Origin: Acidobacteriota bacterium
GTDB lineage: Bacteria > Acidobacteriota > Terriglobia > Terriglobales > Acidobacteriaceae
Direction: 5' to 3'
Assembly: GCA_021810625.1 (NCBI GenBank)
Contig: JAJZIJ010000012.1
Location: forward strand, 1 to 64,000
DNA: 64,000 bases
Shown: positions 43,882 through 61,217 of the stretch, piece by piece
How positions within the stretch are numbered: the stretch's first letter is position 1
How the letters are laid out: each line of letters starts with the position of its first letter
Position numbers and translations under genes: made by a program
Notes under the pieces: model-generated
What the model saw: the letters and a program-made list of their open reading frames with translations, nothing else
What the model was told of the DNA's origin: nothing
Database searches by the model: none

Positions 43882-43906
43882 CAGAATGCCAAGCCCATCG
43901 TTTCCA

Positions 43907-45475
43907 TTAAAACTTTAGTTGTTGCACCATCTGCATCACCGTGGAATTGACGACCGCGAGCACCCACTGGGGATAGAGTCCCAGCGCGAACATCAATCCA
44001 ATCGCAGGTGCCAGCGCCAGTCGCTCGCCAGTTGTTAGATCGGGCATCGCTGCCCATGTTGTGTTGAGCGCTCCAGAAAAGACGCGCTGTAGGATTCCGA
44101 GAATAAAAATTGCTGTCGCCAACAGCCCAAAGACGGAGAGCGCCGCGGCCCATGTCGCGAGAGGGAAGGAGCCTTTGAAGATTAGAAACTCCCCAACAAA
44201 CCCATTCAACCCCGGCAGGCCCAGCGACGAAAACAACGCGATGCCCATCAGTCCGGCAAAAACAGGCATCACTTTACGCAGGCCGCCAAAATCATTCAGT
44301 CCGCGCAGGCCGCCGCTGCGTTTCTCCAGCATGGCCACGAACCAGAACAGCGTTGCGGCGGTCAGGCCATGATTGAACATTTGCAGCAAGACGCCATTCA
44401 TCGCCGCATACTTCTCCGCCGTCAGCGCCACATCGCCGCCAGTGAATTTCAAAACCGCAAAAATACCCAGCAGGCAATAGCCAAGATGGTTGATGGAAGA
44501 ATAGGCAAAGATGCGCTTCAAATCCTTTTGCACAAGCGCGGCGTATGCGGAGAGGACAATTGTTGCCACCGCGAGCCATAAAAGCGGCGTAAGAACCTGC
44601 TGCATTTCTGCGCCGAAAATGGGAAGCAGAATGCGAAGAAATCCGTAGAGGCCCATCTTCGACATCGCGCCGGTCAGCAGAATCGTCGTGCCCGTTGGCG
44701 CTTCGGAGTAGGCCGAAGGCAGCCAGGTGTGGAACGGAACCAGCGGCACTTTGACGGCAAATCCAAGAAAAGCTCCGGCAAAGATCATCAGCGCCACATG
44801 CTCTGGCGTGAACCGATGCCAGCCCAGATTGCGAACGACCGCAGGCATCAACTGCCCGTTCTGCGCCAACCCTGCAAGGTCGATGAAATCAAATTTCCCC
44901 GTTGCCAGAAAGATGGCAAGAAATGCCAGCAACAAGGCAATGCTGCCAACCATCGTATAGACCAGAAACTGCGTGGCCGCTGAAGTGCGACGCGGGCCGC
45001 CCCAGAGTTTGATGAGGAAGAATGCGGGAATCAGGCTCAGTTCCCAAAAAATAAACCAGTGAAAGAAGTTCAACGCCGTGAAGGTTCCGAAGAGACATGC
45101 CTGAAGCAGAAGTACAAGAGAAAAATATAGGGGCACCCGCTCCTGAATCTGCCACGATGCAAGCATCCCGATGGGAACAACGATGGAGGTGAGCAGCAGC
45201 ATCAGGAGTCCAAGCCCGTCGATTCCGACGCGATACTCCACGCCCAGCGCAGGAATCCAAGGGTAGCGCTCTTGAAATTGCAGCGCTCCAGAGGCGGAGT
45301 TGAAGTGGTGCCACAAAAACAGAGTCAACCCCAGCGCAAGAAAACTGAAGGCCAGCGCCAGACCGCGCGCAAGATTTTTGTTTCGTTCGCCAACGCCCCC
45401 GCCAATGCCAAGCACCACGAGCGCGCCTGCAATGGGCACAGAGGTCAGAACGGTGATCCACGGAAATGCAATCAT
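43907..45475 (-). CDS. nuoM: NADH-quinone oxidoreductase subunit M, first copy
   Basis: A full-length NuoM of 522 residues. Key marks are FFHWFIFWELSLIPAFFLIKLWGG (conserved Glu in FWELSLIP), TQFLVYTMVGSIALLLAFL, FAVKVPLVPFHTWLPSAYSEAP and KDLKRIFAYSSINHLGYCLLG. A loop with ALTAEKYAAMNGVLLQMFNHG precedes the later helices. The start ATG 45475 overlaps the nuoL stop by four bases; the frame is open further upstream but inside nuoL. Presence of this plus the second copy gives four antiporter-like subunits (L, M, M, N) instead of three. Confidence 0.93.
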   Translation of the reverse strand: MIAFPWITVLTSVPIAGALVVLGIGGGVGERNKNLARGLALAFSFLALGLTLFLWHHFNSASGALQFQERYPWIPALGVEYRVGIDGLGLLMLLLTSIVVPIGMLASWQIQERVPLYFSLVLLLQACLFGTFTALNFFHWFIFWELSLIPAFFLIKLWGGPRRTSAATQFLVYTMVGSIALLLAFLAIFLATGKFDFIDLAGLAQNGQLMPAVVRNLGWHRFTPEHVALMIFAGAFLGFAVKVPLVPFHTWLPSAYSEAPTGTTILLTGAMSKMGLYGFLRILLPIFGAEMQQVLTPLLWLAVATIVLSAYAALVQKDLKRIFAYSSINHLGYCLLGIFAVLKFTGGDVALTAEKYAAMNGVLLQMFNHGLTAATLFWFVAMLEKRSGGLRGLNDFGGLRKVMPVFAGLMGIALFSSLGLPGLNGFVGEFLIFKGSFPLATWAAALSVFGLLATAIFILGILQRVFSGALNTTWAAMPDLTTGERLALAPAIGLMFALGLYPQWVLAVVNSTVMQMVQQLKF

Positions 45476-47589
45476 CCCCTGGCCCCCCAGAGCAGAAATA
45501 CGGCAAGCGCGATGAGCGCAAAGCCAATTCTCCGCAGATAACTTTGTACCTGGCCTCCCTGAAGAAGCGCCAAAATCTGACCACCGCGCGAAACGCTCTG
45601 GCACCCTTCATCAAAGCCGGCATTCACGATGCGCGTATCAACAAAGTCATCCGCCCATGCCAGACCGAGCGCCAGATGCGAGACTGTTTGCACCGCTCCA
45701 TTCCAGACCCATCGGTCGAGCCAGTCGCAAACACTGGCCCATCCGGCATTCAGGCGAAGGAGAGTCGCGGCATAGAGTTCATCCACGTAAAAGCTATGGT
45801 TCAGCACGGCAAAGATGCGCGGCTGAAGCTGCTCCACCGCATCGGGCATCGCATCGGGCATCGCGCCTGCCTTTTGGGAGTCTTCCATCGGCTTGCGCCC
45901 GTAGAACCACCAGCCCAGGCCGAGGCCAAGAAAAACGAGGAGCGAGGAGGAGAGCATGACCGTAAGCAAATAGACATTTGCGAAAGCGGAAAAATGCAGC
46001 GCTGTCGGTTGCCCGTCGAGAAACGCCTGCAACCACGGCCATGCAGGCGTACCGATCAATCCAAGGAGCATGGCAAAAGAGGCAAGAATCAGCAGCGGAA
46101 TCGTCATGACGGCAGCGCTCTCGCGCGGCGTGGTGGAGGCATGAGGCGAAGCGTGGCTTGCGCCCGCCAGGCGCGACGAGCCACCAAACACGTAGTAGAC
46201 CTGCCGCGTCATATAGAAGGCTGTCAGCAACGCGCCGAAGGCTCCCAAATGAAACGGAACCTGAGAGACGCTCCACGTATGTGCCGCGTGCAGAATTGCG
46301 TCCTTGCTCCAGAAGCCGGAGAAGAACAGCGGAAATCCACATAGCGCGAGCATTCCCACCGCATACGTCGCAAAGGTAATGGGCATGAGCTTTCGCAGTC
46401 CACCCATGCGTCGAATATCCTGCTCGCCGGAGCAGCCATGAATCACCGACCCCGCGCCCAGAAACAGCAGCGCCTTGAAAAATGCGTGCGTAAGCAGATG
46501 GAACATGCCCACGGCTACGCCACCAACGCCGAGGCCCATCATCATGTAGCCAAGTTGCGAAATGGTGGAGTAGGCAAGGATGCGCTTGATGTCATAGTGC
46601 GCGACCGCGATGATCGCGCCAAAGACGGCGGTGATCGCGCCCACCCAGGTGACAACTTGCAGCGCCACGGTTGGATGGAGTGGGAGGGCCATTCCCGTAT
46701 GCGCGCTCATCAACGACGCGCTCATCAGCGGATAAATGCGCGCAATCAAAAACACTCCCGCTGCAACCATCGTCGCCGCATGGATCAGCGCGCTCACTGG
46801 CGTCGGCCCCTCCATCGCATCCGGCAGCCAGACATGCAGCGGAACCTGTCCCGACTTGCCAGCAGCGCCGCAAAAAATCAGCAGCGCGATACCCGTGGAA
46901 GCTGTCAGTCCCAGGATTGTTGTTTGTGCAACCAGGCTGGCGAGCGCCGTGTGTTCCAGGCATCCAGCGCCGTTATCGTAAAAAAGCAGCGTGCCCGTTT
47001 GCGCGTATAGCCAGGCCATGCCCAGAAAAAATGCCAGGTCGCCAATGCGCGTAACGATGAAGGCTTTTTTCGCTGCTGCCGCCGCCCTAGGATTGTGATA
47101 CCAGAAGCCGATGAGCAGATAGGAAGTGAGGCCGACCAGCTCCCAACACATGAAGAGCAGCAGCAGACTGTTGGCAATGACCACGCCCAGCATGGCTCCG
47201 GCAAAGAGCGCGAGAAAACAGAAGAAGCGCGTGAAGTTCTCATCGTGCGCCATGTAGCCAATGCTGTAGATGAAGATCAGCAGGCCAACAAACGTCACCA
47301 TCAACAGCATGACCGCCGTCAGCGGGTTGAGCATCCAGCCGAGCCGCAACCATTCATTGCCAAACTGAAACCAGCGAAAGTTGACGACCTGCAATTCCGC
47401 TTCCCCGCGATGGCTGAGCCAAAGTACATGCGCAAACGCGCAAAGGGAGAGCAGAAACGAGAGGGTCATGGAGCCGATGGCAAGCGAAGCCGCGAAGACG
47501 CGATTGCGCTGTTTTGCCAGGGCGATGATCCCCGCCGCCAGAATGGGCAGCGCGGGCACCAGCCAAAGATTTTGGACAATCCCAGTCAT
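45472..47589 (-). CDS. nuoL: NADH-quinone oxidoreductase subunit L
   Basis: NuoL is the distal antiporter-like subunit carrying the long lateral helix. At 705 residues it is some 90 longer than the E. coli protein. Marks: ELVGLTSYLLIGFWYH, AGKSGQVPLHVWLPDAMEGPTPVSALIHAATMV, KRILAYSTISQLGYMMMGLG and the C-terminal YVDELYAATLLRLN with the final QVQSYLRR helix. A short duplicated DAMPDAMPDA lies in the loop before the C-terminal part. Its lateral helix must cover M, M and N if both NuoM copies join one complex; this cannot be measured by eye. It lies 113 bp after the nuoK stop. Confidence 0.94.
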   Translation of the reverse strand: MTGIVQNLWLVPALPILAAGIIALAKQRNRVFAASLAIGSMTLSFLLSLCAFAHVLWLSHRGEAELQVVNFRWFQFGNEWLRLGWMLNPLTAVMLLMVTFVGLLIFIYSIGYMAHDENFTRFFCFLALFAGAMLGVVIANSLLLLFMCWELVGLTSYLLIGFWYHNPRAAAAAKKAFIVTRIGDLAFFLGMAWLYAQTGTLLFYDNGAGCLEHTALASLVAQTTILGLTASTGIALLIFCGAAGKSGQVPLHVWLPDAMEGPTPVSALIHAATMVAAGVFLIARIYPLMSASLMSAHTGMALPLHPTVALQVVTWVGAITAVFGAIIAVAHYDIKRILAYSTISQLGYMMMGLGVGGVAVGMFHLLTHAFFKALLFLGAGSVIHGCSGEQDIRRMGGLRKLMPITFATYAVGMLALCGFPLFFSGFWSKDAILHAAHTWSVSQVPFHLGAFGALLTAFYMTRQVYYVFGGSSRLAGASHASPHASTTPRESAAVMTIPLLILASFAMLLGLIGTPAWPWLQAFLDGQPTALHFSAFANVYLLTVMLSSSLLVFLGLGLGWWFYGRKPMEDSQKAGAMPDAMPDAVEQLQPRIFAVLNHSFYVDELYAATLLRLNAGWASVCDWLDRWVWNGAVQTVSHLALGLAWADDFVDTRIVNAGFDEGCQSVSRGGQILALLQGGQVQSYLRRIGFALIALAVFLLWGARG

Positions 47590-47702
47590 TGCGTCTCAAC
47601 AGAGGGTTGGAAGATCGTGGAAAAAGCTGCAAGCTCCAATCGCAGCAGCAGGGCATCGGGCAATGGGTAACGCTCCATCAGAAAACTCTGTCCATGCGTC
47701 GC

Positions 47703-48014
47703 TCAACCTTTCAGGGCGTTCATCTGGTTTACATCGGTCGTCTTAAAATGTCGGTGCGCCGCAAGAATAATGCCCAGCCCAACGGCGGCCTCTGCTGCGG
47801 CAATGCTGATGGAAAAAATTGCGAACAGGACTCCCGTCAAAGCTGCGGGATTTGGCCCGTAGCGCCAGAAGGCAAGGAAGTTCAGATTCGCCGCGTTGAG
47901 CATCAGTTCAATGCCAATCAAAACAAGAATGGCGTTGCGCCGCGTCAACGCGCCCGCCAGTCCGATGGAAAACAGCAGCGCGGACACGAGCAGATAATCG
48001 GTCAGCGAACTCAT
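47703..48014 (-). CDS. nuoK: NADH-quinone oxidoreductase subunit K
   Basis: The 103-residue protein has three membrane helices with the conserved glutamates of NuoK: GIELMLNAANLNFLAF (first Glu) and IAAAEAAVGLGI (second Glu), which form part of the proton path next to NuoJ and NuoN. The start at 48014 overlaps the nuoJ stop by four bases. Length is normal for the family. Confidence 0.93.
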   Translation of the reverse strand: MSSLTDYLLVSALLFSIGLAGALTRRNAILVLIGIELMLNAANLNFLAFWRYGPNPAALTGVLFAIFSISIAAAEAAVGLGIILAAHRHFKTTDVNQMNALKG

Positions 48015-48538
48015 GGCATCTCCTGTTGTTCCTGCATCGCGACAAGCACCGCGCCGATAAGGGCTGCGGTTAGCAGCAGACCCATGATCTCCAGCGGCAA
48101 AACAAATCTGTGCATCAGCGCGTTGCCGATGGCGCGAACCCCGGCATCGGCTTGCGACGGCAATGCTTGCGGTGGCAATGTTTTCGGTAATGCCGCGCTG
48201 GAGTGAATCGCCCACGCCAGCACTGCAAACACCGCACTGGCAATCATGCCGCCCGCTATCCAGCCCGGCATCCGGGAGGGAGTGAAGACTGGCTGCGCCA
48301 CGGCTCCCGCGCGCTGCGTCATCATAATGGCAAACATGGCAAGAATGGCCACCGCGCCCACGTAGACAAGAATCTGCGTAAAGCCGACGAATTGCGCGCC
48401 GAGTTGCAGGTACAGCGCGGCCAGGCCGGCAAAGCCCAGCGTCAGCGCCAGGACGCAATGCACAAGATTGCGCAGGCTCATCGCAGCCACAGTTCCGGCA
48501 ATCGTCAGCGCGGCGAGAATGAAGAAGGATACTGTCAT
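48011..48538 (-). CDS. nuoJ: NADH-quinone oxidoreductase subunit J
   Basis: The 175-residue protein has five membrane helices, including the conserved pi-bulge helix region QFVGFTQILVYVGAVAILAMFAIMM (core ILVYVGAVAILAMF). The loop between helices 4 and 5 is Ala/Pro/Gln-rich. ATG 48538 is taken as start because the hydrophobic N-terminus begins there; an ATG at 48559 would add seven residues. The 119 bp between nuoH and nuoJ contain a 36-codon open frame of doubtful reality. Confidence 0.92.
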   Translation of the reverse strand: MTVSFFILAALTIAGTVAAMSLRNLVHCVLALTLGFAGLAALYLQLGAQFVGFTQILVYVGAVAILAMFAIMMTQRAGAVAQPVFTPSRMPGWIAGGMIASAVFAVLAWAIHSSAALPKTLPPQALPSQADAGVRAIGNALMHRFVLPLEIMGLLLTAALIGAVLVAMQEQQEMP

Positions 48539-48657
48539 CTTAAATTTCGGTCTCCGCAAGCTCGCGCGTGACGGCTAGCCGACTGTCAGAAACAAAAAGC
48601 GGATACATGTAAGTTTCTACAATACAGCCGCCGGACGATGTGACCCGCATCACGAAT

Positions 48658-49833
48658 TTACTCGGCAAAACGGTAGCTCCGTATTCCAGATTTTTTTTCT
48701 TGCTGCAACCCACGGCCCAACAGCAGGAACGGCGCAACGACCAGCGCGATGCACGCCAGCCAGCGCGCATATCCCGCAGGCATAAAGTGCCAGACCCCGG
48801 CGGCAAAAATGTTGAGCAGCGTCATCGGCAACATGAATTTCCATGCAAAGCTCATCAACTGATCCATGCGTAAACGCGGAAGCGTGCCGCGAATCCAGAT
48901 GAATCCGGCAATCAGCGTCAGCAGCTTCGCAAAGAACCAAACATACGATGGAATCCAGGTCAGAAAAGAAAATGGCGCGGCCCATCCGCCAAGAAACAGC
49001 GTAATCGCCATGCCACTGGTGGCAAACATGCCCAGGTATTCCCCCAGAAAAAAGAGCGCGAATTTGAAGCCGGAGTATTCGATGTAGTAGCCCGCAATAA
49101 TTTCTGATTCCCCTTCTGGCAGATCGAAGGGCGAGCGATTGGATTCCGCTGTTGCCGCAATCATAAAGAGTACAAACCCGGCGAATCCCCACGGCGTAAA
49201 TACGAACCAGTGCGGCCAGATTCCGGTATAGCCGACCTGCGCGTTGACAATGGCCACGGTGGAAAGCGAGCCTGCCGCCATGATGACCACAACCGATGCC
49301 AGCACCAGCGGCACCTCATAGCTAATCATTTGCGCGATGGCGCGCATTGCGCCCAGCAGGGAGTATTTGCTCCGGCTGGCCCAGCCTGCCATAAAGACCG
49401 CGAGTTCCACCATTGAGCCGACAGCGAAAAAAAACAGCACGCCAGCATTCAGATTGGCAACCACCATATTGCGGCCTATGGGCAAAACCGCATACGCCAA
49501 AAATGCCGCCGCCACCAGCAACAACGGCGCGAGAAAATGCGCCACGCGGTCTGCGGTAGCAGGAACAACATCTTCCTTGGTCAGCGATTTTATGCCATCA
49601 GCAATCGGTTGAAAGAAGCCACACGGCCCCACGCGGTTTGGCCCGTAACGATTCTGGATTCGTCCCAGACCTTTGCGCTCCAGCACTGTGGTGATGGCAA
49701 ACAACAGAGGGAACACCACGAGGATGGGCACGACAGAAAGCAGCGCCGAAAAGATCGGCTGCACGCCTGCGGGCGCAAATCCCAGGAGCCAGTGCTTGCA
49801 AATCACAAATATCTGATCGACGGTTGCAGGCAT
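48658..49833 (-). CDS. nuoH: NADH-quinone oxidoreductase subunit H
   Basis: NuoH connects the quinone site to the proton channels. The protein, 391 residues from ATG 49833, has eight membrane helices and the signatures ERKGLGRIQNRYGPNRVGP, QPIADGIKSLTKED, AESNRSPFDLPEGESEIIAGY and FFLGEYLGM, with the acidic residues of the E-channel kept. A GTG start at 49839 overlapping the nuoI stop is equally possible (GGGAG upstream). In this operon nuoH follows nuoI, the reverse of the usual order. Confidence 0.93.
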   Translation of the reverse strand: MPATVDQIFVICKHWLLGFAPAGVQPIFSALLSVVPILVVFPLLFAITTVLERKGLGRIQNRYGPNRVGPCGFFQPIADGIKSLTKEDVVPATADRVAHFLAPLLLVAAAFLAYAVLPIGRNMVVANLNAGVLFFFAVGSMVELAVFMAGWASRSKYSLLGAMRAIAQMISYEVPLVLASVVVIMAAGSLSTVAIVNAQVGYTGIWPHWFVFTPWGFAGFVLFMIAATAESNRSPFDLPEGESEIIAGYYIEYSGFKFALFFLGEYLGMFATSGMAITLFLGGWAAPFSFLTWIPSYVWFFAKLLTLIAGFIWIRGTLPRLRMDQLMSFAWKFMLPMTLLNIFAAGVWHFMPAGYARWLACIALVVAPFLLLGRGLQQEKKSGIRSYRFAE

Positions 49834-49835
49834 CG

Positions 49836-50468
49836 TCACGCGCCGCTCCCTTCTGTGGTTTCACTGGTCTCGCGGAGGGGTTGCGCTGGAGGAGTCGCAA
49901 CCGTGGCCGTTTTTGCCTCCGCAGCCAGTTTTGCTTTTGCTTCCAGCTTGGCCCGTTCCTCGGCCAGTTGCGCATCCACCGCAGCCGCTTCCGTGGGATG
50001 GATTTTCCCGTAATATGCGTTGGACTTGGCCAACCGCTCTTTGTCCCACAGCAAACCGCCGAAGCGGTCGTTTGTGCTGAGTTCAAACTCAACATCCATC
50101 TTGATGGCGTCAAAAGGGCAGACCTCGACGCAAATCTGGCAACTCATGCAGACAGAAACGTCGATGTTGAAAACCACAGGGTAAAACTGCGGTTTTCCGG
50201 TGGCATCCGGCTTTTTGTCTTTGCTTTTTTCGATGAAGATGCACTTGGGCGGGCATTCCTTCTCGCAGATCAGGCAGGAAACGCAGCGCATCCCCTGCTG
50301 CCAGTCTTCGCCATCGTAGACGAGGAAGGGGAAGCTGCGCGCCGCTTCAATGTGCGGCAGGCGTTCCTCTGGAAATTGAACCGTGGTCAGTCGATCTTTG
50401 CTGACGTAGCTGCCCAGAAAATTTCGGGCTGTCTCCGCCAGACCTTTCAAAATGCCTTCACCCAACAC
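49836..50468 (-). CDS. nuoI: NADH-quinone oxidoreductase subunit I
   Basis: NuoI holds the two [4Fe-4S] clusters N6a and N6b leading to N2. The eight cysteines are all present: Cys62, 65, 68 and 72, and Cys107, 110, 113 and 117. The start is GTG 50468 with AGAGG about 11 bases upstream. After the ferredoxin core the protein has an unusual tail of about 60 residues rich in Ala, Glu and Lys, predicted as a helix (AEERAKLEAKAKLAAEAK), then a Thr/Pro-rich end. In a complex lacking NuoEFG this subunit would be the likely entry point for electrons from ferredoxin. Confidence 0.93.
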   Translation of the reverse strand: MLGEGILKGLAETARNFLGSYVSKDRLTTVQFPEERLPHIEAARSFPFLVYDGEDWQQGMRCVSCLICEKECPPKCIFIEKSKDKKPDATGKPQFYPVVFNIDVSVCMSCQICVEVCPFDAIKMDVEFELSTNDRFGGLLWDKERLAKSNAYYGKIHPTEAAAVDAQLAEERAKLEAKAKLAAEAKTATVATPPAQPLRETSETTEGSGA

Positions 50469-50527
50469 AGATGCAACCTCTACCGAAAGATGATTTCAAT
50501 CGTTCCGCCGCTTGCCGCGACCCGTCC

Positions 50528-51688
50528 TTATCGATCCACTTCGCCCAACACAATATCAATGCTGCCCAGCGTTATCACGACATCGGCCACGTTCTGGCCC
50601 AGACACATCTCCTCCAGCACCGTCAGGTTGATGAGGCTGGGCGGACGCACGCGATAGCGATACGGATTGGGTGATCCATCGCTGATTAAATAAAAACCCA
50701 GCTCGCCTTTGGGAGACTCGATCCGTCCGTAAGCCTCTCCAGCCTTTGGACGGAAGCCGCGAATCTTTGTTTTTGGATCCTGGATCGGCCCCGGCGAAAT
50801 CTCTCGCATGGCCTGCTGCAAAATCCTGATCGACTCGCGCATCTCCAGCACGCGAATCATGTAGCGGTCATATACATCGCCGTGCTCGCCCAGTGGCACC
50901 TTAAATGCGAAGCGATCATAGATGCCATATTTGTCCACTTTGCGAATGTCGTAATTGATCCCGGAGGCCCGCAGCATCGGCCCTGTGATTCCGGCATTGA
51001 CGGCCAGTTCTCTGGGCAACACGCCAACGCCCTGCGTGCGCGCCATCAAAATTTCATTCTCTGTCAGCAGCCGTTCGTATTCATCCAGAAACCGTGGGAA
51101 GGCTTCCATGACTTTTTGCGCCTGCTGGAGCCAGTCCGCAGATGCATCCACGCGGCAGCCGCCAAAGCGCATGTAGTTGCACATCATGCGCGCGCCGGTC
51201 AGCGACTCGAAGAGATCAAGAATTTTTTCGCGTTCGCGGAAGGCGTACATCAGCGGCGTTCCGCTTGCGCCCATGTCCTGCATCAAAAACCCGATCAGGC
51301 AGGCGTGATTTTGCAGCCGGGTCAGTTCGCCAGTAATCACGCGGAGATACTCGGCGCGCTCTGGCACCTGAATGCCAGCCAGCTTTTCGACGGCAAGCGC
51401 ATAAGCCCAGTTGTTGGTGATGGAGCAGAGATAGTCCAACCGGTCGGTGTAGGGCATCGAACCGAGATAGCTCTCGTTTTCCGCAATTTTTTCGTGGTTG
51501 CGATGCAGGTAGCCGAAGACGGGTTTCAGCTTGACGACGCGCTCGCCGTCGAGCACGACGTTCATGCGAAAGACGCCGTGCGTCGAGGGATGCTGCGGCC
51601 CCATCGAAACTTCCAGAAACTGATCCTCGCCGCCATCGGTCGATGGTTTCGGCGTGATATGCGCGGTGGGGTAGGTTGTGGTTGCCAT
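50528..51688 (-). CDS. nuoD: NADH-quinone oxidoreductase subunit D
   Basis: NuoD (49-kDa subunit) forms the quinone pocket with NuoB. The 386-residue protein has [14 protein letters not shown] with the quinone-contacting His, [24 protein letters not shown] with the conserved Tyr and Asp, and C-terminal [12 protein letters not shown]. The NiFe-binding cysteines of related hydrogenases are absent, as expected. ATG 51688 overlaps the nuoC stop as TGATG; a GTG at 51694 is possible. Confidence 0.94.
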
Positions 51689-52317
51689 CAACACCCCACT
51701 CCGTTCTGGTGTTGCTTCGCTTTTTGCAGCACTTCGTCGTGCGCCGTTGGCTCGTATTCGTAATCGTTGGGTTCGACGTAATCTCTGCGCATCGGATGAT
51801 CCTCAAATTCGTCCCACATCAAAATGCGCCGCAGGTCGGGATGTCCGTCGAAGTGAATGCCAAAGAGGTCAAAGATTTCGCGCTCCTGAAACTCCGCGCT
51901 GCGCCAGACCGGCGTGAGCGATGGAAGATGCGCTCGATTCTCCCGGTCTTCCGTGCGCAGGCGAAGAACAAACGGCCCATGTTTCTTCTCCACGGAGTAG
52001 AGATGGTAGACCGCCTCCAGATATCCAAGAGACTGTGTTTTTCGGGTCTCTTCGACCTCCTGCTCCACGCCATCCAGAATCTTTTTTACCTTGATTTTTT
52101 CGGAAATCTCCTTGCTCGGCCAATCGACACCGGTGACATTGGAGCAGAAATCAAATCGGAGATGCGCGGCATCGCGCAGAAAGCGAGCCACGGCGACGGC
52201 ACGGGCGGCATCGACCAACAGCGAGTGCTGCTCCGACGGGCTGGCGTTGGGAATGATCTCCAATCGACAGCCGGAGACACTCGCTTCGATCTCGGATTTA
52301 ATTGTTTCCAGATTCAT
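51688..52317 (-). CDS. nuoC: NADH-quinone oxidoreductase subunit C
   Basis: NuoC (30-kDa subunit) is a peripheral-arm scaffold. The 209-residue protein keeps the family core [61 protein letters not shown] (core [16 protein letters not shown]) and the final [15 protein letters not shown] 52317 is chosen because the protein begins there with a normal N-terminal helix; it overlaps the nuoB end by 20 bases. It is a separate gene, not fused to nuoD. Confidence 0.93.
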
Positions 52318-52939
52318 CCTTGCCTGCCAATGAAATATGAACCAGGGGCGGGTGCCATATTTCAGGGTTTTGTGACGGCTCCAGGTCATGCGCGCCAAAT
52401 TGCGGCACGGGAAACTCGCTGGGCGTGTCGAGATTCAAGTGGCGCGGCCTGTCGGCCCCGGTTAAATGTTGCTCGTCGATCTTTTTCTGCAATGCCATCA
52501 GCGCATCAATCAGCGCTTCAGGCCGGGGCGGGCAGCCCGGAATATAGATATCCACGGGAATGTAGCGATCAATCCCTTTCAGCACGTTGTAGCCCTGCTT
52601 AAACGGCCCGCCGGAGATGGCGCAGGCTCCCATTGAGATGACGTACTTTGGCTCCGGCATCTGGTTGTAGAGCCGAATTACTTGCGGGGCCATTTTTTTT
52701 GTGACGGTGCCCGCGACAATCATCAAGTCCGCTTGTCGCGGCGAGGGGCGAAAGACCTCTGCGCCGAATCGCGCCATATCGTACCGCGCCATTGTTGTGG
52801 CAATCATTTCGATGGCGCAGCAGGCCAGGCCGAAATTCAGCGGCCAAAGAGAGTTTTTGCGGCCCCAATTGTAGAGTTCCTGTAGTGTCGTGGTAAAAAT
52901 CCCTTGCTTGCGCAATGCGATTTTCAACGGCTCATCCAT
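52298..52939 (-). CDS. nuoB: NADH-quinone oxidoreductase subunit B
   Basis: NuoB binds cluster N2, the last cluster before quinone. The 213-residue protein has the adjacent cysteines in [11 protein letters not shown] (Cys40, Cys41), the third in [10 protein letters not shown] and the fourth in [13 protein letters not shown]. The C-terminal part (about 160-213) is a longer Pro/Asp-rich tail than usual. ATG 52939 follows an in-frame GTG at 52942. Confidence 0.94.
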
Positions 52940-52960
52940 CACAAAAACCCTTCTGTGCGG

Positions 52961-53332
52961 CTAGCTCCAGGCCAGCACGTTTTTTTGGAAGGCCCAGACC
53001 AGCCCTTCCACCAGCAAAAGAAAAAAGACCAGCATGGCCAGACATTCCCCCACGCCGAATCCGGTAAAGGACACCGCGAAGGGCAACAGGAAGACTGCTT
53101 CCACATCGAAAACCAGAAAGACGATGGCGTACAGGTAGTAGCCCGGCTTCAATGGAATCCAGGCATCGCCTGTCGCTTCCAGTCCGCACTCATAGATGGC
53201 ATTTTTGCTCTGGCCGGGTTTGTGCGGAGAAAACATCCTTGCCCATAGCCACGCCAGCGCCAGCGGCGCAAGAGCAAAGGCCGTGGCTGCAAGCAGCAGA
53301 ACGATGACAGGAAGGTAAGAATCGTTGCCCAT
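52961..53332 (-). CDS. nuoA: NADH-quinone oxidoreductase subunit A
   Basis: The 123-residue protein has three membrane helices and the NuoA signature: NAIYECGLEATGDAW with the conserved Glu-Cys-Gly, then YYLYAIVFLVFDVEAVFLLPF with conserved Asp and Glu. It is the first gene of the nuo operon, which runs A-B-C-D-I-H-J-K-L-M-M-N without nuoE, nuoF or nuoG between D and I. The start at 53332 faces the shared control region with nifJ. The longer open frame running to 53971 crosses that region and is not used. Confidence 0.94.
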   Translation of the reverse strand: MGNDSYLPVIVLLLAATAFALAPLALAWLWARMFSPHKPGQSKNAIYECGLEATGDAWIPLKPGYYLYAIVFLVFDVEAVFLLPFAVSFTGFGVGECLAMLVFFLLLVEGLVWAFQKNVLAWS

Positions 53333-53392
53333 AACACCCAAACACTCTACCGTACCAGATTCGCGCCGGAGCGCGAGCCATACGCCTCCATT

Positions 53393-53398
53393 ATTATG
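53393..53398 (-). promoter_or_regulatory. Candidate -10 box for the nuo operon
   Basis: On the minus strand CATAAT matches TATAAT at five of six bases. It predicts a start near 53386, about 54 bases before nuoA, and puts the centre of the CRP-type site at -41.5. No good -35 box precedes it, as expected for a class II activated promoter. Confidence 0.5.
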
Positions 53399-53419
53399 CC
53401 GCTTCGCTGTACAAAGTGG

Positions 53420-53435
53420 TGTGATCTGGCTCACA
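53420..53435. promoter_or_regulatory. CRP/FNR-family operator between nuoA and nifJ
   Basis: TGTGATCTGGCTCACA has both perfect CRP half-sites, TGTGA and TCACA, with the standard 6-base spacer. It lies between the divergent nuoA (start 53332) and nifJ (start 53498). It fits class II spacing towards nuoA, and a weaker -10 candidate CAGAAT at 53458-53463 gives about -42.5 towards nifJ. The half-sites favour a CRP-like over an FNR-like (TTGAT) factor. Confidence 0.72.
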
Positions 53436-53497
53436 TCTGGAGAGCGTGGCGGCGAGGCAGAATGGTGGATGGGACGAGGTGAGCGGAGAGGAAGTAC

Positions 53498-56400
53498 ATG
53501 AAGGAACAGAAAATTGTGATTCTTGATGGCAACGAAGCAGCCGCTTCTGTGGCGTATCGGCTCGCGGAAGTCATTACGATCTACCCGATCACGCCTGCCT
53601 CCACAATGGGCGAGTGGGCCGATCAGTGGAAAGAGGAAGGACGCAAAAACATCTGGGGTTCGGTGCCCTTTGTTGCTGAGTTGCAGAGCGAAGGCGGAGC
53701 CGCCGGAGCCATGCATGGCGCGCTTCAGGCTGGAGCGTTCAGCACCACCTTCACCGCCTCGCAGGGGCTGCTGCTCATGATCCCCAACATGTACAAGATT
53801 GCGGGGGAATTGACTTCCAACGTCATCCATGTGACCGCGCGCACCATCGCCGCCCATGCGCTTTCCATCTTCGGCGACCATTCGGATGTGATGGCCTGCC
53901 GCGCCACAGGCTACGCCATGCTTGCCTCCAGTTCCGTGCAGGAGGCGGGCGATCTGGCGCTCATTGCCCACATTGCCACGCTGGAGTCACGGATTCCGTT
54001 CATGCACTTTTTTGACGGCTTTCGCACCTCGCATGAGATCAACAAGGCCGTTGCCATCTCCGATGACGTGATTCTGGCGCTGCTGGAGGAGAAATATCTG
54101 GCCGCCCATCGCGAACGCGCGCTCAGTTCGGATCGGCCCATCCTTCGCGGCACGGCGCAGAATCCCGATGTATTTTTTCAGGCCCGCGAGGCCAGCAATC
54201 CTTTTTACCTGGCCTGCCCCACTATTGTGCAGGATGCGATGAATCGCTTCGCCGCGCAGACCGGACGGGCCTATCATCTGTTCGATTATGTCGGCGCTCC
54301 CGATGCAGATCGCGTGCTTATTCTGATGGGATCGGGCGCTGGCGCGGTGGAAGAAACCATCGACCATCTGAACGCGCAGGGGGAAAAGCTGGGCCTGCTC
54401 AAGGTTCGCTTGTATCGCCCCTTTGCTGCCGAGGCATTTCTTGCCGCGTTGCCAAAGACGGTGCAGTCCATCGCGGTGCTGGATCGCACCAAGGAGCCGG
54501 GCGCGCTCGGCGAGCCGCTCTATCAGGATGTCGTTACCGCCTTCAGCGAGGCCTTTTCCAGTGGGGATGCGCCCTTCGCGCAGCAGCCACGCATTATTGG
54601 TGGACGCTACGGCCTCTCTTCCAAGGAGTTCACCCCGGCGATGGTCAAGGGGGTCTTTGACGAACTAAAGAAGCCGCGCATGAAGAACCACTTCACCATC
54701 GGCATTCAGGACGATGTTACCCACACCAGTTTGGACTACGATCCTGAGTTCTCCACCGAGGATCCGCGCACGGTGCGCGCGCTTTTCTACGGCCTTGGCT
54801 CGGATGGAACCGTCGGAGCCAATAAAAATTCCATCAAAATTATTGGCGCGGAGACATCGAACTACGCGCAGGGCTTCTTCGTGTATGACTCGAAGAAGTC
54901 TGGCTCGGTGACAACCTCGCATCTGCGCTTTGGCCCAAATCCGATCCGCTCGACCTATCTCATCAGCAAGGCGAATTTTGTAGCCTGCCACCAGTTTTCC
55001 TTTTTGGAGCGCATGGATGTTCTGACCGCAGCGGCTCCGGGGGCTGTCTTTCTGCTGAACTCCCCTTACGGCCCGGACGAGGTATGGGATCACCTGCCGC
55101 GCGCGGCGCAGGAGAGCATCCTCAAAAAGAAACTTCAGTTCTACGTCATTGACGGCTATACCGTGGCGCGTGAAGCCGGAATGGGCAGCCGCATCAACAC
55201 GGTCATGCAGACCTGCTTCTTCGCCATCAGCGGCGTGCTTCCGCGTGACGAAGCCATCGCGCAAATCAAGAAGGCCATCCAGAAGACCTACGGCAAGCGC
55301 GGCGATGCCGTGGTGCAACAGAACTATGCCGCCGTCGATGCCGCTCTTGCCCATCTGCATCCAGTAAAGTTGCCGGAAAAAGTCTCTTCGTCTTTTGACG
55401 TTCTGCCGATCTTTCCCGCCGCAGCGCCTGCCTTTGTGCATAGCGTTCTGGGCGTCATGGCCGCAGGGCATGGAGATACCTTGCCCGTCAGCGCGCTACC
55501 CCCCGGCGGAACCTTCCCCACTGGCACGGCGCAGTGGGAGAAGCGCAATATCGCCCAAATCATTCCGGTCTGGGACGAAGAACTTTGCATTCAGTGCGGC
55601 AAGTGCGTGCTGGCCTGTCCCCACGCGGTTATTCGCGCCAAAGTGTATGACCAGTCGCTGCTGCCCAGCGCCCCGCCCACTTTCAAAAGCGCCAAGCCCA
55701 AGTGGCGCGGCATGGAGCAGGAACTCTACACATTGCAGGTGGCGCCGGAGGATTGCACCGGGTGCCGTCTTTGTGTTGAGGTCTGTCCCGTCAAGAGCAA
55801 GAGTGAAGCGCGGCACAAGGCCATCAACATGGAGGCGCAGGCTCCGCTGCGCGCGGCGGAAGCAGAAAACTGGAAATTCTTTGAAGCGCTGCCCTCCGTG
55901 GCTCGAAATCGACTCTCCCACGGGCAGGTCAAGGATATTCAACTCCTCGATCCGCTCTTTGAGTTCTCTGGAGCCTGCGCTGGCTGCGGCGAGACGCCGT
56001 ACATCAAGCTGCTCACGCAACTCTTTGGCGATCGCCTCTACATCGCCAATGCCACGGGCTGCTCTTCCATCTACGGAGGCAATCTGCCGACTACGCCCTA
56101 TACGGTGAACAAGAGCGGGCGCGGCCCCACCTGGGCAAACTCCCTTTTTGAGGACAATGCCGAGTTTGGTCTGGGTATGCGGCTGGCGCTGGATCAGCAG
56201 AAGGTCTACGCGGAGCAGCTTTTGCAACGCCTTGCCTCCACGGTTGGCGACGATCTTGTTGCCGCAGTTCTGACTTCCGTCCAGTCCACGGAAGATGAGA
56301 TTGAGGCGCAGCGCGCGCGGGTCAAGCTGGTTCGGGAAAAATTAGCTGGGGCAAACTCCGTGGAGGCCCGCAGCCTGCTGACCATTGCCGACTCTCTGGT

Positions 56401-57130
56401 TCGCAAGAGCGTCTGGCTGGTGGGCGGCGATGGCTGGGCCTACGATATCGGCTTTGGCGGCCTCGATCATGTGCTTGGCTCCGGCCAGAACGTCAAGGTG
56501 TTGGTGCTCGATACGGAGACCTATTCCAACACCGGCGGTCAGATGTCCAAGGCCACGCCGCGCGGCGCGGTGGCCAAGTTTGCCGCAGGCGGCAAGCCTA
56601 ACGGCAAAAAAGACCTTGCGATGGAAGCTGTCAGCTATGGCTCGGTCTACGTGGCTCGCGTGGCGATGGGAGGCAGCGACGCGCAGACCGTCAAAGCATT
56701 TCAGGAGGCCGAAGCCTATCACGGCCCGGCGTTGATTCTTGCCTACAGCCCCTGCATTGCCCACGGATACGACCTTGCCTATGGCATGGAGCAACAGAAA
56801 AATGCGGTTCTCTCCGGCCACTGGCCGTTGATGCGCTACAACCCGGAACTGCGCGAGCAGGGCAAGAATCCCTTCCTGCTCGACTCCAGAGCGCCCTCCA
56901 TTCCGCTCAAGGAATACAGCTATCACGAGGCCCGATACACGATGCTCGCGCGCAGCCATCCTGACGTGGCAAAGAAGTTGCTTCAAGAGGCGCAGGACGA
57001 TGTCGAGCGCGAATGGCGGGTCTACTCCGGTCGCGCCGCCATGCCGGGACGCGCAGCCACGCCAAACATCGCTCCGTCGGAACCAGAAGGCGAGGTTGCG
57101 CCTCTGGGCAAGGTGGAGGAGGAGGCATGA
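53498..57130 (+). CDS. nifJ: Pyruvate:ferredoxin (flavodoxin) oxidoreductase, single-chain
   Basis: The enzyme oxidises pyruvate to acetyl-CoA and CO2, reducing ferredoxin or flavodoxin, and may run in reverse. The 1210-residue chain has all domains: I with YPITPASTMGEW, III (gamma-like) with VTTSHLRFGPNPIRSTYL, and domain V with two [4Fe-4S] sites, CIQCGKCVLACP from Cys697 and CTGCRLCVEVCP from Cys753. The TPP domain has CAGCGETPYIKL with a proximal cluster, GDGWAYDIGFGG (Asp978) and DTETYSNTGGQ. A variable Pro/Glu-rich tail ends it. AGAGGAAG precedes ATG 53498. It overlaps the next gene by ATGA. Confidence 0.95.
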   Translation: MKEQKIVILDGNEAAASVAYRLAEVITIYPITPASTMGEWADQWKEEGRKNIWGSVPFVAELQSEGGAAGAMHGALQAGAFSTTFTASQGLLLMIPNMYKIAGELTSNVIHVTARTIAAHALSIFGDHSDVMACRATGYAMLASSSVQEAGDLALIAHIATLESRIPFMHFFDGFRTSHEINKAVAISDDVILALLEEKYLAAHRERALSSDRPILRGTAQNPDVFFQAREASNPFYLACPTIVQDAMNRFAAQTGRAYHLFDYVGAPDADRVLILMGSGAGAVEETIDHLNAQGEKLGLLKVRLYRPFAAEAFLAALPKTVQSIAVLDRTKEPGALGEPLYQDVVTAFSEAFSSGDAPFAQQPRIIGGRYGLSSKEFTPAMVKGVFDELKKPRMKNHFTIGIQDDVTHTSLDYDPEFSTEDPRTVRALFYGLGSDGTVGANKNSIKIIGAETSNYAQGFFVYDSKKSGSVTTSHLRFGPNPIRSTYLISKANFVACHQFSFLERMDVLTAAAPGAVFLLNSPYGPDEVWDHLPRAAQESILKKKLQFYVIDGYTVAREAGMGSRINTVMQTCFFAISGVLPRDEAIAQIKKAIQKTYGKRGDAVVQQNYAAVDAALAHLHPVKLPEKVSSSFDVLPIFPAAAPAFVHSVLGVMAAGHGDTLPVSALPPGGTFPTGTAQWEKRNIAQIIPVWDEELCIQCGKCVLACPHAVIRAKVYDQSLLPSAPPTFKSAKPKWRGMEQELYTLQVAPEDCTGCRLCVEVCPVKSKSEARHKAINMEAQAPLRAAEAENWKFFEALPSVARNRLSHGQVKDIQLLDPLFEFSGACAGCGETPYIKLLTQLFGDRLYIANATGCSSIYGGNLPTTPYTVNKSGRGPTWANSLFEDNAEFGLGMRLALDQQKVYAEQLLQRLASTVGDDLVAAVLTSVQSTEDEIEAQRARVKLVREKLAGANSVEARSLLTIADSLVRKSVWLVGGDGWAYDIGFGGLDHVLGSGQNVKVLVLDTETYSNTGGQMSKATPRGAVAKFAAGGKPNGKKDLAMEAVSYGSVYVARVAMGGSDAQTVKAFQEAEAYHGPALILAYSPCIAHGYDLAYGMEQQKNAVLSGHWPLMRYNPELREQGKNPFLLDSRAPSIPLKEYSYHEARYTMLARSHPDVAKKLLQEAQDDVEREWRVYSGRAAMPGRAATPNIAPSEPEGEVAPLGKVEEEA

Positions 57131-58152
57131 TCGACCTGTGTACCGACTATCTTGGCCTGCAGTTGAAGAGTCCCCTGGTCGTTTCCTCCTCGCCGCTCAG
57201 TGAGTCGGTCGAGAACATTCTGCGTCTGGAAGAAGCCGGGGCCGCTGCCGTGGTGCTGGCGTCGATCTTTGAGGAGCAGCTTGCGCTGGAGAGCAAGGCT
57301 CTGGATCATGACCTTTCTCGCGGCACGGAATCCTTCGCGGAGTCGCTCAGCTACTTTCCTGCATACGACGATTATCTCCAGGGACAGGATGCCTATCTCA
57401 ACCGTCTGCATCGCGCCAAAAGTCGCGCCAGCATCCCGATCATCGCCAGCCTGAATGGGGCCTCGGCAGGCGGATGGGTACGCTTCGCCAAAGAGATCGA
57501 ACAGGCAGGCGCAGATGCGCTGGAGTTGAACACCTACTCGCTGGCCACGGGGTTTCTAAAAACCAGCGCCATGATTGAAGAAGGAATCGTCGATCTGGTG
57601 TATCGCGTCAAGCAGAGTACGAGCATTCCCGTTGCCGTCAAATTGTCGCCGCAATACACCAGCATTCCGCATCTGGCTCGGCAACTGGATGATGCCGGAG
57701 CCGACGCGCTGGTTCTCTTCAATCGCTTTTATCAGCCGGATTTTGACATTGAAAATCTCAACGTCATTCCCAGGCTCACGCTCAGCCGCCCGGAAGAACT
57801 GCTTCTCCGGCTGCATTGGGTCGCCGTTCTTTACGGGCATTTGCGCGCGGAACTGGCCGTTACCGGGGGAGTTCATAGCGCGGAAGATGTTCTCAAGTCC
57901 ATTATGGCGGGCGCTCAGGTGGCCATGGCGGCCTCGGCGCTGCTGAAGCATGGCACCTCGCACCTGACAACCATGCAGATCGATCTGACGCGCTGGATGG
58001 AGGAACACGAATACCAATCCATTCGCCAGATGCGCGGCAGCTTGAGCCGCCGTTCGGTTCCCGATTCTTCCGCATTCGAGCGCGGCAACTACATCCGCAC
58101 CTTGAGTAGCTACACCTTGCGGCAGAAAGATGCGCTGCCCCGGCCCGGCTGA
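57127..58152 (+). CDS. Dihydroorotate dehydrogenase-like flavoprotein
   Basis: The 341-residue protein resembles the TIM-barrel dihydroorotate dehydrogenase and PreA family: LQLKSPLVVSSSPLSESVENI, IIASLNGASAGGWVRFAKEIEQAGADALELN, VAVKLSPQYTSIPHLARQL and the FMN phosphate site AVTGGVHSAEDVLKSIMAGA. The usual pyrimidine substrate residues are not all present, so the product of pyrD is not implied. Its start overlaps the nifJ stop by four bases, so it is made with NifJ and may pass electrons to or from ferredoxin. The substrate is unknown. Confidence 0.82.
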   Translation: MIDLCTDYLGLQLKSPLVVSSSPLSESVENILRLEEAGAAAVVLASIFEEQLALESKALDHDLSRGTESFAESLSYFPAYDDYLQGQDAYLNRLHRAKSRASIPIIASLNGASAGGWVRFAKEIEQAGADALELNTYSLATGFLKTSAMIEEGIVDLVYRVKQSTSIPVAVKLSPQYTSIPHLARQLDDAGADALVLFNRFYQPDFDIENLNVIPRLTLSRPEELLLRLHWVAVLYGHLRAELAVTGGVHSAEDVLKSIMAGAQVAMAASALLKHGTSHLTTMQIDLTRWMEEHEYQSIRQMRGSLSRRSVPDSSAFERGNYIRTLSSYTLRQKDALPRPG

Positions 58153-58314: not shown

Positions 58315-60168
58315 ATGACCACCAGCGGTCTTGTGGCGCAGGGCCAGACAACGTCGAGCCTTGTTCGTGGGGGAAAGCAGATTGTCAATGACTTTTCCAT
58401 CCAAATTGCAACTGTCAACGGCTCTGGATCGCAATCGGCGAACAGTGTCCTGCTTCGCAGCATCTTCCGCATGGGCGTGCCTGTATCGGGCAAGAATCTC
58501 TTTCCATCCAACATTGCGGGGCTTCCCACCTGGTACACCATTCGCGTCAGCAAGCATGGATGGGTCGCGCGAAAAACGGACATTGATGTTCTGATCGCCA
58601 TGAACCCGGAGACCGCGCAGCAGGATGTGCTCTCCCTGGGCGCGGGCGCGGCTGTCATTTATGACGAATCCTTCAAGCTCAACGAGCTGCGCACGGATTT
58701 GACCTTTTATCCCGTGCCCTTTGACCAACTGACGGCCTCCACCGGCGCCGATGCCAAGATTCGCAAGCTGGTCAAGAACATGGTCTATGTGGGCGTTGCG
58801 GCCCAGTTGCTCTCCATTGACATGGAGTGGATCGAAAAGTCGGTTCGCAAGCAGTTTGCCAAGAAGGTCAAAGCCGCTGAGTTAAACCTGAGCGCTGTCC
58901 GCGCTGGCTTCGAGTATGCTGCAAGTTCTCTGACTCAGCAGAATCCCTATCTTGTCGAGCCGATGAATGCCACGCAAGGCAAAATCATCATCGACGGCAA
59001 CGCCGCCGCCGCAATGGGAGCCATGTTCGCCGGAGTCACCGTCGTGACTTGGTATCCCATCACGCCGTCCTCTTCTGTCGTCGAACAGCTCATCGACTAC
59101 ATGAAAAAGTACCGCATCGAGCAGGACGGCAAGGCCAGCTTCGCCATCGTGCAGGCGGAGGATGAACTCGCCGCCATCGGCATGGTGATCGGCGCAGGAT
59201 GGGCCGGTGCCCGCTCCATGACCGCAACCTCCGGGCCAGGAATTTCGCTGATGGCGGAGTTCGCCGGACTCGCCTACTTTACCGAAATCCCCGGCGTTAT
59301 CTTTGATGTTCAGCGCACTGGCCCCTCCACCGGAATGCCCACCCGCACCTCGCAGGGTGACATTACCTTTATCGCGGGACTATCCCACGGCGACACCAAA
59401 CACGTCATGCTGATCCCCGCATCGGTCAAAGAGTGTTACGAGTTTGGCATTGCGGCCTTCGATATCGCGGAGCAGATGCAGACACTGGTTTTTGTGCTCT
59501 CGGATCTCGATCTCGGCATGAACAACTGGATGTCCGAGCCATTTGAGTATCCAGAGAAGCCAATCCAGCGCGGCAAGGTTCTCAATGCCAAGCAACTGGA
59601 GGAACTCGGCGGCTTTGCCCGCTACAAAGATGTGGATGGCGATGCGATTCCGTATCGCACGTTGCCGGGAACCGATCATCCCGCTGCCGCCTACTTTACG
59701 CGCGGCTCCGGCCACAATGAAAAAGCTTTGTACTCCGAGCGTCCCGACGAGTACGAAAACAACATGCTGCGTCTGGCGCGGAAGTTTGAGACCGCAAAGA
59801 CGCTCGTTCCGAAGCCAATCCTCGAAGGCACGGGCAAGCAGAAGGTCGGCATCATCGCCTTTGGCACCAGCCACTGGGCGGTAATCGAGAGCCGCGATCA
59901 ACTGGAGCGCGAGTCTCATCTGGGCACCGACTATCTTCGCGTCCGCGCCTATCCCTTTACGCAGGAGATTCACGATTTCGTCGCCAGTCATGAGCGAGTT
60001 TATGTCGTCGAGCAGAATCGTGATGCCCAGATGCTCCACCTGTTGAAGGTCGATCTTGACCCGGTGCAGATCGTCAAACTGCGCTCCGTGCTGCACTTCA
60101 ACGGACTGCCCATCGACGCGCGCACCCTCACCACTGCAATCGCCTCGCAGGAAGGAGCAGGCAAATAA
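58315..60168 (+). CDS. korA: 2-oxoacid:ferredoxin oxidoreductase, alpha subunit with fused gamma domain
   Basis: The 617-residue subunit joins an N-terminal gamma domain (about 27-200; TVNGSGSQSANSVLLRSIFR) to the alpha domain (about 225-610; WYPITPSSSVVEQL, IVQAEDELAAIGMVIGAGWAG, and SGPGISLMAE). The C-terminal part has GIIAFGTSHWAV and RVYVVEQNRDAQM. With KorB it oxidises 2-oxoglutarate or another 2-oxoacid to the acyl-CoA, reducing ferredoxin. It has its own 162-bp upstream gap, which holds no gene. Confidence 0.92.
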   Translation: MTTSGLVAQGQTTSSLVRGGKQIVNDFSIQIATVNGSGSQSANSVLLRSIFRMGVPVSGKNLFPSNIAGLPTWYTIRVSKHGWVARKTDIDVLIAMNPETAQQDVLSLGAGAAVIYDESFKLNELRTDLTFYPVPFDQLTASTGADAKIRKLVKNMVYVGVAAQLLSIDMEWIEKSVRKQFAKKVKAAELNLSAVRAGFEYAASSLTQQNPYLVEPMNATQGKIIIDGNAAAAMGAMFAGVTVVTWYPITPSSSVVEQLIDYMKKYRIEQDGKASFAIVQAEDELAAIGMVIGAGWAGARSMTATSGPGISLMAEFAGLAYFTEIPGVIFDVQRTGPSTGMPTRTSQGDITFIAGLSHGDTKHVMLIPASVKECYEFGIAAFDIAEQMQTLVFVLSDLDLGMNNWMSEPFEYPEKPIQRGKVLNAKQLEELGGFARYKDVDGDAIPYRTLPGTDHPAAAYFTRGSGHNEKALYSERPDEYENNMLRLARKFETAKTLVPKPILEGTGKQKVGIIAFGTSHWAVIESRDQLERESHLGTDYLRVRAYPFTQEIHDFVASHERVYVVEQNRDAQMLHLLKVDLDPVQIVKLRSVLHFNGLPIDARTLTTAIASQEGAGK

Positions 60169-60170
60169 TC

Positions 60171-61217
60171 ATGTCCACGCCCTCTGTATCGCCCAAGCCC
60201 GTCAAGACCAATCGCATCGGTCTCCAGATTCTGGATTATCGCGGCGGCAAGACCACGCTCTGCGCCGGTTGCGGCCACAATGCCATCTCCGAGCGCATCA
60301 CTGAGGCGTTCTATGAAATGGGAATTCAGCCGGAGCGCGTGATGAAGATGAGCGGCATCGGCTGCTCCTCCAAGTCTCCGGCGTATTTCATGTCCCGCTC
60401 CTTCAGCTTCAACACTGTGCATGGACGAATGCCCTCGGTCGCCACCGGCGCGCTGCTGGCCAACAAGACCATGCGCTCCATCGGCGTCAGCGGCGATGGT
60501 GACACCGCTTCCATTGGCATGGGCCAGTTCATCCATCTGCTGCGCCGCAATGTTCCGATGATTTACATCATCGAGGACAATGGCGTGTATGGACTCACCA
60601 AAGGCCAGTTCTCCGCGACTGCCGACATTGGCTCGAAGTTGAAGACAGGCGTCATCAATGATCTGCCCGCCATCGACACCTGCGCGCTGGCCATTCAGAT
60701 TGGCGCAACCTTTGTCGGGCGCTCCTTCTCTGGCGACAAGAAGCAACTCTCCGCCATGTTAAAGGCAGCGGTCGCGCATCAGGGAACCGTCATGCTGGAC
60801 GTGATCTCCCCCTGCGTCACCTTCAACGACCACGAGGGATCGACCAAGAGCTACAAGTACATGCAGGAGCACGAAGAGGCCATCGGCGAGGTTGGCTTTG
60901 TTCCGCATTTTGAGGACATTGCCGTCGAGTACGATCCCAACACCACCGTCGATGTTCGCCTGCACGATGGCTCGCATCTGCGCCTCCGCAAGCTGCATGA
61001 AGGCTACGATCCCACAGACAAGGTTCAGGCCACAAAGATGCTGATGGAGTCGCACGCCAAAGGCGAAGTGCTCACCGGGGTCTTTTACGTGGACACGCAG
61101 AAGCCGGATTTCGCTTCGCTCCTCAACATGGTGGATGAGCCGCTGGCAACATTATCCCAGGAGCGCGTCCGTCCCCGCCGCGAAGTCCTGGCGGAGATCA
61201 TGGAAGCGCACAGCTAA
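60171..61217 (+). CDS. korB: 2-oxoacid:ferredoxin oxidoreductase, beta subunit
   Basis: The 348-residue TPP-binding subunit starts two bases after korA. It has the cluster-binding CAGCGHNAISERI (Cys31, Cys34), a third Cys in SGIGCSSK, the TPP motif GVSGDGDTASIGMGQF and the downstream IIEDNGVYGLTKGQ. The VISPCVTFNDH stretch contributes the last cluster cysteine. KorB without a dedicated ferredoxin domain passes electrons to free ferredoxin. A strong terminator 29 bases after the stop ends this arm. Confidence 0.93.
   Translation: MSTPSVSPKPVKTNRIGLQILDYRGGKTTLCAGCGHNAISERITEAFYEMGIQPERVMKMSGIGCSSKSPAYFMSRSFSFNTVHGRMPSVATGALLANKTMRSIGVSGDGDTASIGMGQFIHLLRRNVPMIYIIEDNGVYGLTKGQFSATADIGSKLKTGVINDLPAIDTCALAIQIGATFVGRSFSGDKKQLSAMLKAAVAHQGTVMLDVISPCVTFNDHEGSTKSYKYMQEHEEAIGEVGFVPHFEDIAVEYDPNTTVDVRLHDGSHLRLRKLHEGYDPTDKVQATKMLMESHAKGEVLTGVFYVDTQKPDFASLLNMVDEPLATLSQERVRPRREVLAEIMEAHS

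Follow-up and report, generated by a model that had tools for sequence, protein, structure and literature searches.

Between the divergently transcribed nuoA and nifJ genes of an Acidobacteriaceae genome lies a palindrome of the type bound by Crp/Fnr-family proteins. The question it raises is whether one bound dimer could act on the promoters at both sides and, if so, which protein would bind there and in answer to what signal. A sequence-only reading of the window, by which we mean the whole 64,000-nucleotide stretch analysed, had proposed a perfect CRP-type palindrome placed to activate both operons. Here we examine that proposal by comparison across the family.

A predicted operator between divergent nuo and nifJ operons

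The palindrome, TGTGATCTGGCTCACA, lies between the start of nuoA (53332, minus strand) and that of nifJ (53498, plus strand), with the sequence and coordinates originally reported for it (Table 1). The description as perfect applies to the two 5-base arms; the 6-base centre is not palindromic. Within the source genome, motif counts cannot tell signal from chance. With up to one mismatch the motif occurs three times in the 64-kb window against 1.43 expected, which is no enrichment, and 29 times in the whole 2.45-Mb genome against 15 for a reversed control, and the perfect motif occurs twice in the genome, as does its control. We accept the operator in this genome because its conservation and position, rather than its motif count, exceed chance.

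Table 1. Predicted regulatory elements and genes around the nuoA-nifJ intergenic region
Feature	Coordinates	Strand	Basis and remarks
Crp/Fnr-family operator TGTGATCTGGCTCACA, common to both operons	53420..53435		predicted from sequence and conservation; centre 53427.5
Distal nuoA -10, CATAAT	53398..53393	-	predicted; predicted +1 53386; operator centre at -41.5
Proximal nuoA extended -10, CTGGTACGGT	53358..53349	-	predicted; predicted +1 about 53342; operator at -85.5
nifJ -10, CAGAAT	53458-53463	+	predicted; predicted +1 53470; operator centre at -42.5
Likely nifJ ribosome-binding site, AGAGGAAG	53487..53494	+	read from sequence
nuoA, first complex I operon gene	52961..53332	-	ORF and Pfam
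nuoB C D I H J K L M M N	40847..52942	-	Pfam for L and both M; others from translations
nifJ, pyruvate:ferredoxin (flavodoxin) oxidoreductase (PFOR)	53498..57130	+	ORF and Pfam
Dihydroorotate-dehydrogenase-like protein, overlapping the nifJ end	57127..58152	+	ORF and Pfam
korA-like 2-oxoacid:ferredoxin oxidoreductase alpha	58315..60168	+	ORF and Pfam
korB-like 2-oxoacid:ferredoxin oxidoreductase beta	60171..61217	+	ORF and Pfam

The complex I operon (40847-53332) is without nuoE, F and G and contains two NuoM-like genes (43907-45604 and 42367-43881). This gene set matches the described 11-subunit and 2M forms of complex I (PMC11238625; PMC6606698), which share with it the missing NADH module and, in the 2M type, two NuoM, and for which PFOR/ferredoxin has likewise been put forward as partner; the complex encoded here looks like a 2M, ferredoxin-type enzyme. 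It differs from those described in having the PFOR/KOR genes next to it in divergent orientation, with one operator in common. Which molecule passes electrons directly to complex I forms that lack an NADH module is regarded as unsettled (PMC11238625). A second nuo operon of the genome, on contig 11, includes nuoE, F and G and encodes the 14-subunit form; no such operator was found there in 20 kb. Separately, the end of the window (61949-64000) and a region of a different contig (L279:10003-12138) each encode a long, secreted protein rich in GGGxxN/TLTVSNSTFSGN repeats, and the two are very similar to each other in the N-terminal region.

Conservation of the operator across the family

A close orthologue of this nuoA was present in 129 of the 398 family genomes searched, and 96 nuoA upstream regions were oriented for comparison. 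In 34 of these, spread over 6 genera, nifJ is divergent from nuoA; in some relatives the divergent neighbour is korA instead. Every one of the 34 divergent nuoA-nifJ intergenic regions contains the operator with no more than one of the ten arm positions mismatched, and dinucleotide shuffles of the same loci contained a mean of 0.27 operators and never more than 2. As sequences within a genus are related, the genus is the fair unit, and by this measure the operator was found in 6 of 6 genera at a chance of <1% per locus.

In the aligned intergenic regions, arm identity was 95-96% in the g1+g78 and g80 groups and 87% in g34, the latter from three sequences only, and identity at positions outside the operator was 37-57%. 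The conserved blocks in g80 are the palindrome itself, GARAATGG on the nifJ side and TCTGRTAANGT on the nuoA side. A sister species of the same genus (G001, a MAG, locus L268) retains the operator as TGTGATCTAGCTCACA, and at the position of CAGAAT it has CAAAAT, a better match to a -10 box; its contig stops just past the operator, so that the comparison covers the nifJ side. Motif strength varies by lineage, most of g78 having a TGTGC arm. Judged by these alignments, the operator is evolutionarily conserved and real.

The nuoA-nifJ intergenic region is longer in g33 (264-359 bp) and holds two operators, one near each promoter, in 10 of 10 genomes (L010, L082, L085, L086, L093, L095, L096, L101, L111 and L114). 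Because each promoter has a separate operator in g33, both operons appear to be targets, and this arrangement is the strongest sign that they are.

Spacing between the operator and the two promoters

A sigma-70-type -10 matrix, which is approximate and modelled on E. coli promoters, was scored at every offset from the palindrome and averaged by genus; on this scale a 22-base gap (centre at -42.5) was the best offset in both directions, and a 21-base gap (-41.5) was second-best in the nuo direction. The -10 score was 1.74 in the nifJ direction against a null maximum of -0.52, and 1.0 in the nuo direction against a null maximum of -0.01. When the shared-operator loci were taken alone, the nifJ direction was still above the null maximum of 0.87, and the nuo peak of 0.97 exceeded the 95% null value (-0.66) and fell below the null maximum (1.40). 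Across genera the operator is centred about -41.5 from the predicted starts in both directions, the starts being placed from the -10 boxes. The proposal that one CRP-type operator is class II-placed for both arms is thus supported, by its presence in 34/34 loci and by the best offset both ways.

The boxes CATAAT and CAGAAT are themselves weak matches. For nifJ, the earlier assignment of CAGAAT, with a predicted start at 53470 and the operator near -42.5, is arithmetically correct. So is that of CATAAT for nuo (start 53386, operator at -41.5), which overlooked a nearer and more widely conserved extended -10 element, CTGGTACGGT. Our own model of nuo transcription from CATAAT only was revised once this element emerged, and nuo here probably has two promoters, of which CATAAT would be the distal one. 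The extended element, CTGnTAnnnT, occurs in 63 of the 96 orthologous nuoA upstream regions (2.2 expected). In g80 and g34 it sits at class II distance from the operator. In g1 and g78 the two are set apart by additional DNA, and CATAAT or TAAAAT is found at -41.5 instead; the TAAAAT of G195 and G137 has the same spacing as CATAAT and places the operator at exactly -41.5.

It might be argued that the operator serves the nifJ promoter only, that nuo runs from CTGGTACGGT and that CATAAT is a chance match. The nearer nuo element is indeed conserved whether the operator is present or not, and three g78 genomes retain the operator near nifJ alone. We nevertheless consider this unlikely, since in g80 and g34 the extended -10 is itself at class II distance, a second operator is retained for nuo in g33, and TAAAAT recurs at exactly -41.5 in two genomes.

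The motif and a wider set of sites

In nine g78/g80 relatives the perfect motif occurred 3-17 times, against 0-1 for the reversed control, and took the form TGTGAY-N4-RTCACA; in 74 perfect sites the base following TGTGA was C/T in 88% and A in 5%. By gene names taken from translations, these sites adjoin, among others, acetate kinase, phosphate acetyltransferase-like, citrate synthase, fumarase and malic enzyme genes, genes for NiFe-hydrogenase subunits, nuoE, nuoJ and sucA, and genes for multihaem cytochromes, protoporphyrinogen oxidase and universal stress proteins. In the source genome, a scan for the motif of the kind suggested earlier showed weaker sites before alternative complex III-like cytochrome, protoporphyrinogen oxidase, universal stress protein and haem protein genes; the count of perfect motifs there is at control level.

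Two one-mismatch sites lie 56 bp apart upstream of the multihaem alternative complex III-like cytochrome gene (L039:1501-1572; G000:C22:15590-15661, G000 being the source genome). Others, at L047:1501-1516, L222:1204-1219 and L222:2969-2984, precede the protoporphyrinogen oxidase, universal stress protein and haem protein genes of the source genome, and the one before protoporphyrinogen oxidase is kept in G302.

No acidobacterial Crp/Fnr regulon was found in the literature searched. The operator type is known and the regulon seems undescribed; what is new is the apparent regulon and its setting, not the kind of operator.

Candidate regulators

The proposal could not stand in a genome without a Crp/Fnr-family protein; this one encodes three, L001, L002 and L003. 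The recognition helix of L003 (at G000:C25), RESVTR, has equivalents of CRP R180/E181/R185. The protein has cysteines at positions 13, 16, 25 and 64, of which C13 and C16 are present in 29/30 and C25 and C64 in 30/30 aligned relatives, the only sequence to lack any of them being truncated by the edge of its contig. A perfect TGTGA-N6-TCACA, a putative autoregulatory site, stands about 70 bp before the genes of four L003 orthologues in g78, and no operator was found upstream of the source genome's own L003 gene. L003-type proteins occur in 61 of 62 genomes, including genomes without the nuo operator, and their presence or absence does not discriminate. AlphaFold modelling of the regulator from four sequences gave a mean pLDDT of 49, was confident in the DNA-binding half alone and is uninformative on the cysteines. 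From its recognition residues and conserved cysteines, L003 is the most likely binder and probably acts as a redox- or oxygen-responsive sensor, not as a cAMP-CRP.

Like FNR, L003 has four conserved cysteines, here putative Fe-S ligands, with three near the N-terminus, and it would act on energy and anaerobic genes. The cysteine spacing differs and the fourth lies elsewhere. FNR-type proteins have a recognition helix without Arg180 and TTGAT half-sites, whereas the recognition residues and motif here (RESVTR, TGTGAY) are CRP-type.

A CRP responding to cAMP was considered as the reader and is unlikely: the canonical cAMP-contact residues (equivalents of E72/R82 of E. coli CRP) are absent from L003 and L001, the R82 equivalent is absent from L002 as judged by eye, and a search for class III adenylate cyclases only (PF00211) had no match in the genome. 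For the same reasons cAMP is probably not the signal.

The recognition helix of L002 is without the CRP-type Glu/Arg pair. That of L001, REVVTR, has the same three recognition residues (R/E/R) as L003, and a palindrome conserved upstream of L001 orthologues, AGTGACTTAARTCACT, shares the GTGAY-N4-RTCAC core while being distinct from the nuo-nifJ operator. L001, putatively a regulator of the nitrosative-stress type, could on these grounds bind in place of the four-cysteine protein. We think it improbable that it does, since its operator prefers an outer A/T and a TTAA centre, features missing from the nuo-nifJ operators, and since close L001 orthologues are encoded by G266 and G035, which have no nuo operator. 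The L001 gene (L001:1135-2795, G000:C43) is divergent from a RIC/ScdA-like di-iron repair gene, as read from translation.

Discussion

We put the probability that this palindrome is a shared activating Crp/Fnr operator for nifJ/kor and nuo, most likely read by L003, at roughly 0.7 (0.72). On this model, one Crp/Fnr-family dimer on a single operator would overlap the -35 region of each of two divergent promoters and could recruit RNA polymerase as class II activators do, standing at -42.5 for the nifJ/kor side, at -41.5 for the distal nuo promoter and at -85.5 for the nearer one. The likely binder would be the four-cysteine, redox/oxygen-responsive L003 and not cAMP-CRP, and its action would co-regulate the ferredoxin-reducing enzymes PFOR and KOR with the 11-subunit-type complex I that has no NADH module. 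The absence of the operator from the 20 kb examined at the genome's canonical 14-subunit nuo operon speaks in favour of this explanation.

Around a single dimer, the stretches of DNA needed by the two polymerases would overlap, and Crp/Fnr proteins are capable of repression. The operator might accordingly be a repressor site, or a switch between mutually exclusive polymerases, instead of a co-activator; we rate this a little lower still than the L001 and nifJ-only readings, as -41.5/-42.5 is an activator position and repression would be expected from overlap with the -10 or the start. Rex, the NADH/NAD+ regulator, has operators (TTGTGAANNNNTTCACAA; PMC6391272) that also read TGTGA-N6-TCACA and governs similar genes; we rejected it as reader, a role that is very improbable, on the misfit at the base after TGTGA and on finding no Rex N-terminal domain above cut-off in 8 genomes, the source genome included. 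That the palindrome is a functionless chance occurrence is just as hard to credit: the perfect-motif count in the source genome equals its control, but presence at 34/34 loci with footprint-like conservation refutes a chance origin at the family level by sequence comparison.

Single sites acting in two directions have precedents. El-Robh and Busby 2002 (Biochem J 368:835) reportedly describe a model system with a single CRP site between divergent promoters. E. coli has 11 divergent pairs with a single CRP site between them, among them gltA-sdhCDAB and araBAD-araC (PMC3105977). The present locus shares with these one TGTGA-N6-TCACA site for both directions and differs in its genes and phylum, in a signal that is probably not cAMP, in class II spacing on both sides and in being predicted from sequence. 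Cmr of M. tuberculosis, a redox-responsive, cAMP-independent Crp/Fnr protein, likewise controls divergent promoters from one site at cmr-rv1676 (PMC5499769), as we infer for the regulator here, but Cmr has other targets and also acts as a repressor of its own upstream promoter. HcpR (PMC545781) offers the closely similar motif TTGTGA-N6-TCACAA, an Arg180-type reader and energy genes; it is defined by hcp/frdX, however, and the outer T/A pair is dispensable here.

A broader reading, which we hold tentatively and at slightly less than even odds, is that the Acidobacteriaceae have an undescribed energy regulon under a four-cysteine, probably Fe-S, Crp/Fnr protein of CRP specificity, in which a bidirectional class II operator couples PFOR/KOR to an 11-subunit (2M-like) complex I with ferredoxin as the partner. 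The analysis names a candidate regulator, L003, to delete, and the divergent promoters with one or two sites, found across several genera, form a natural series for testing how one dimer serves two polymerases. A common operator that ties PFOR/KOR to this complex I, and is absent from the 14-subunit operon, would provide independent evidence for ferredoxin as its partner.
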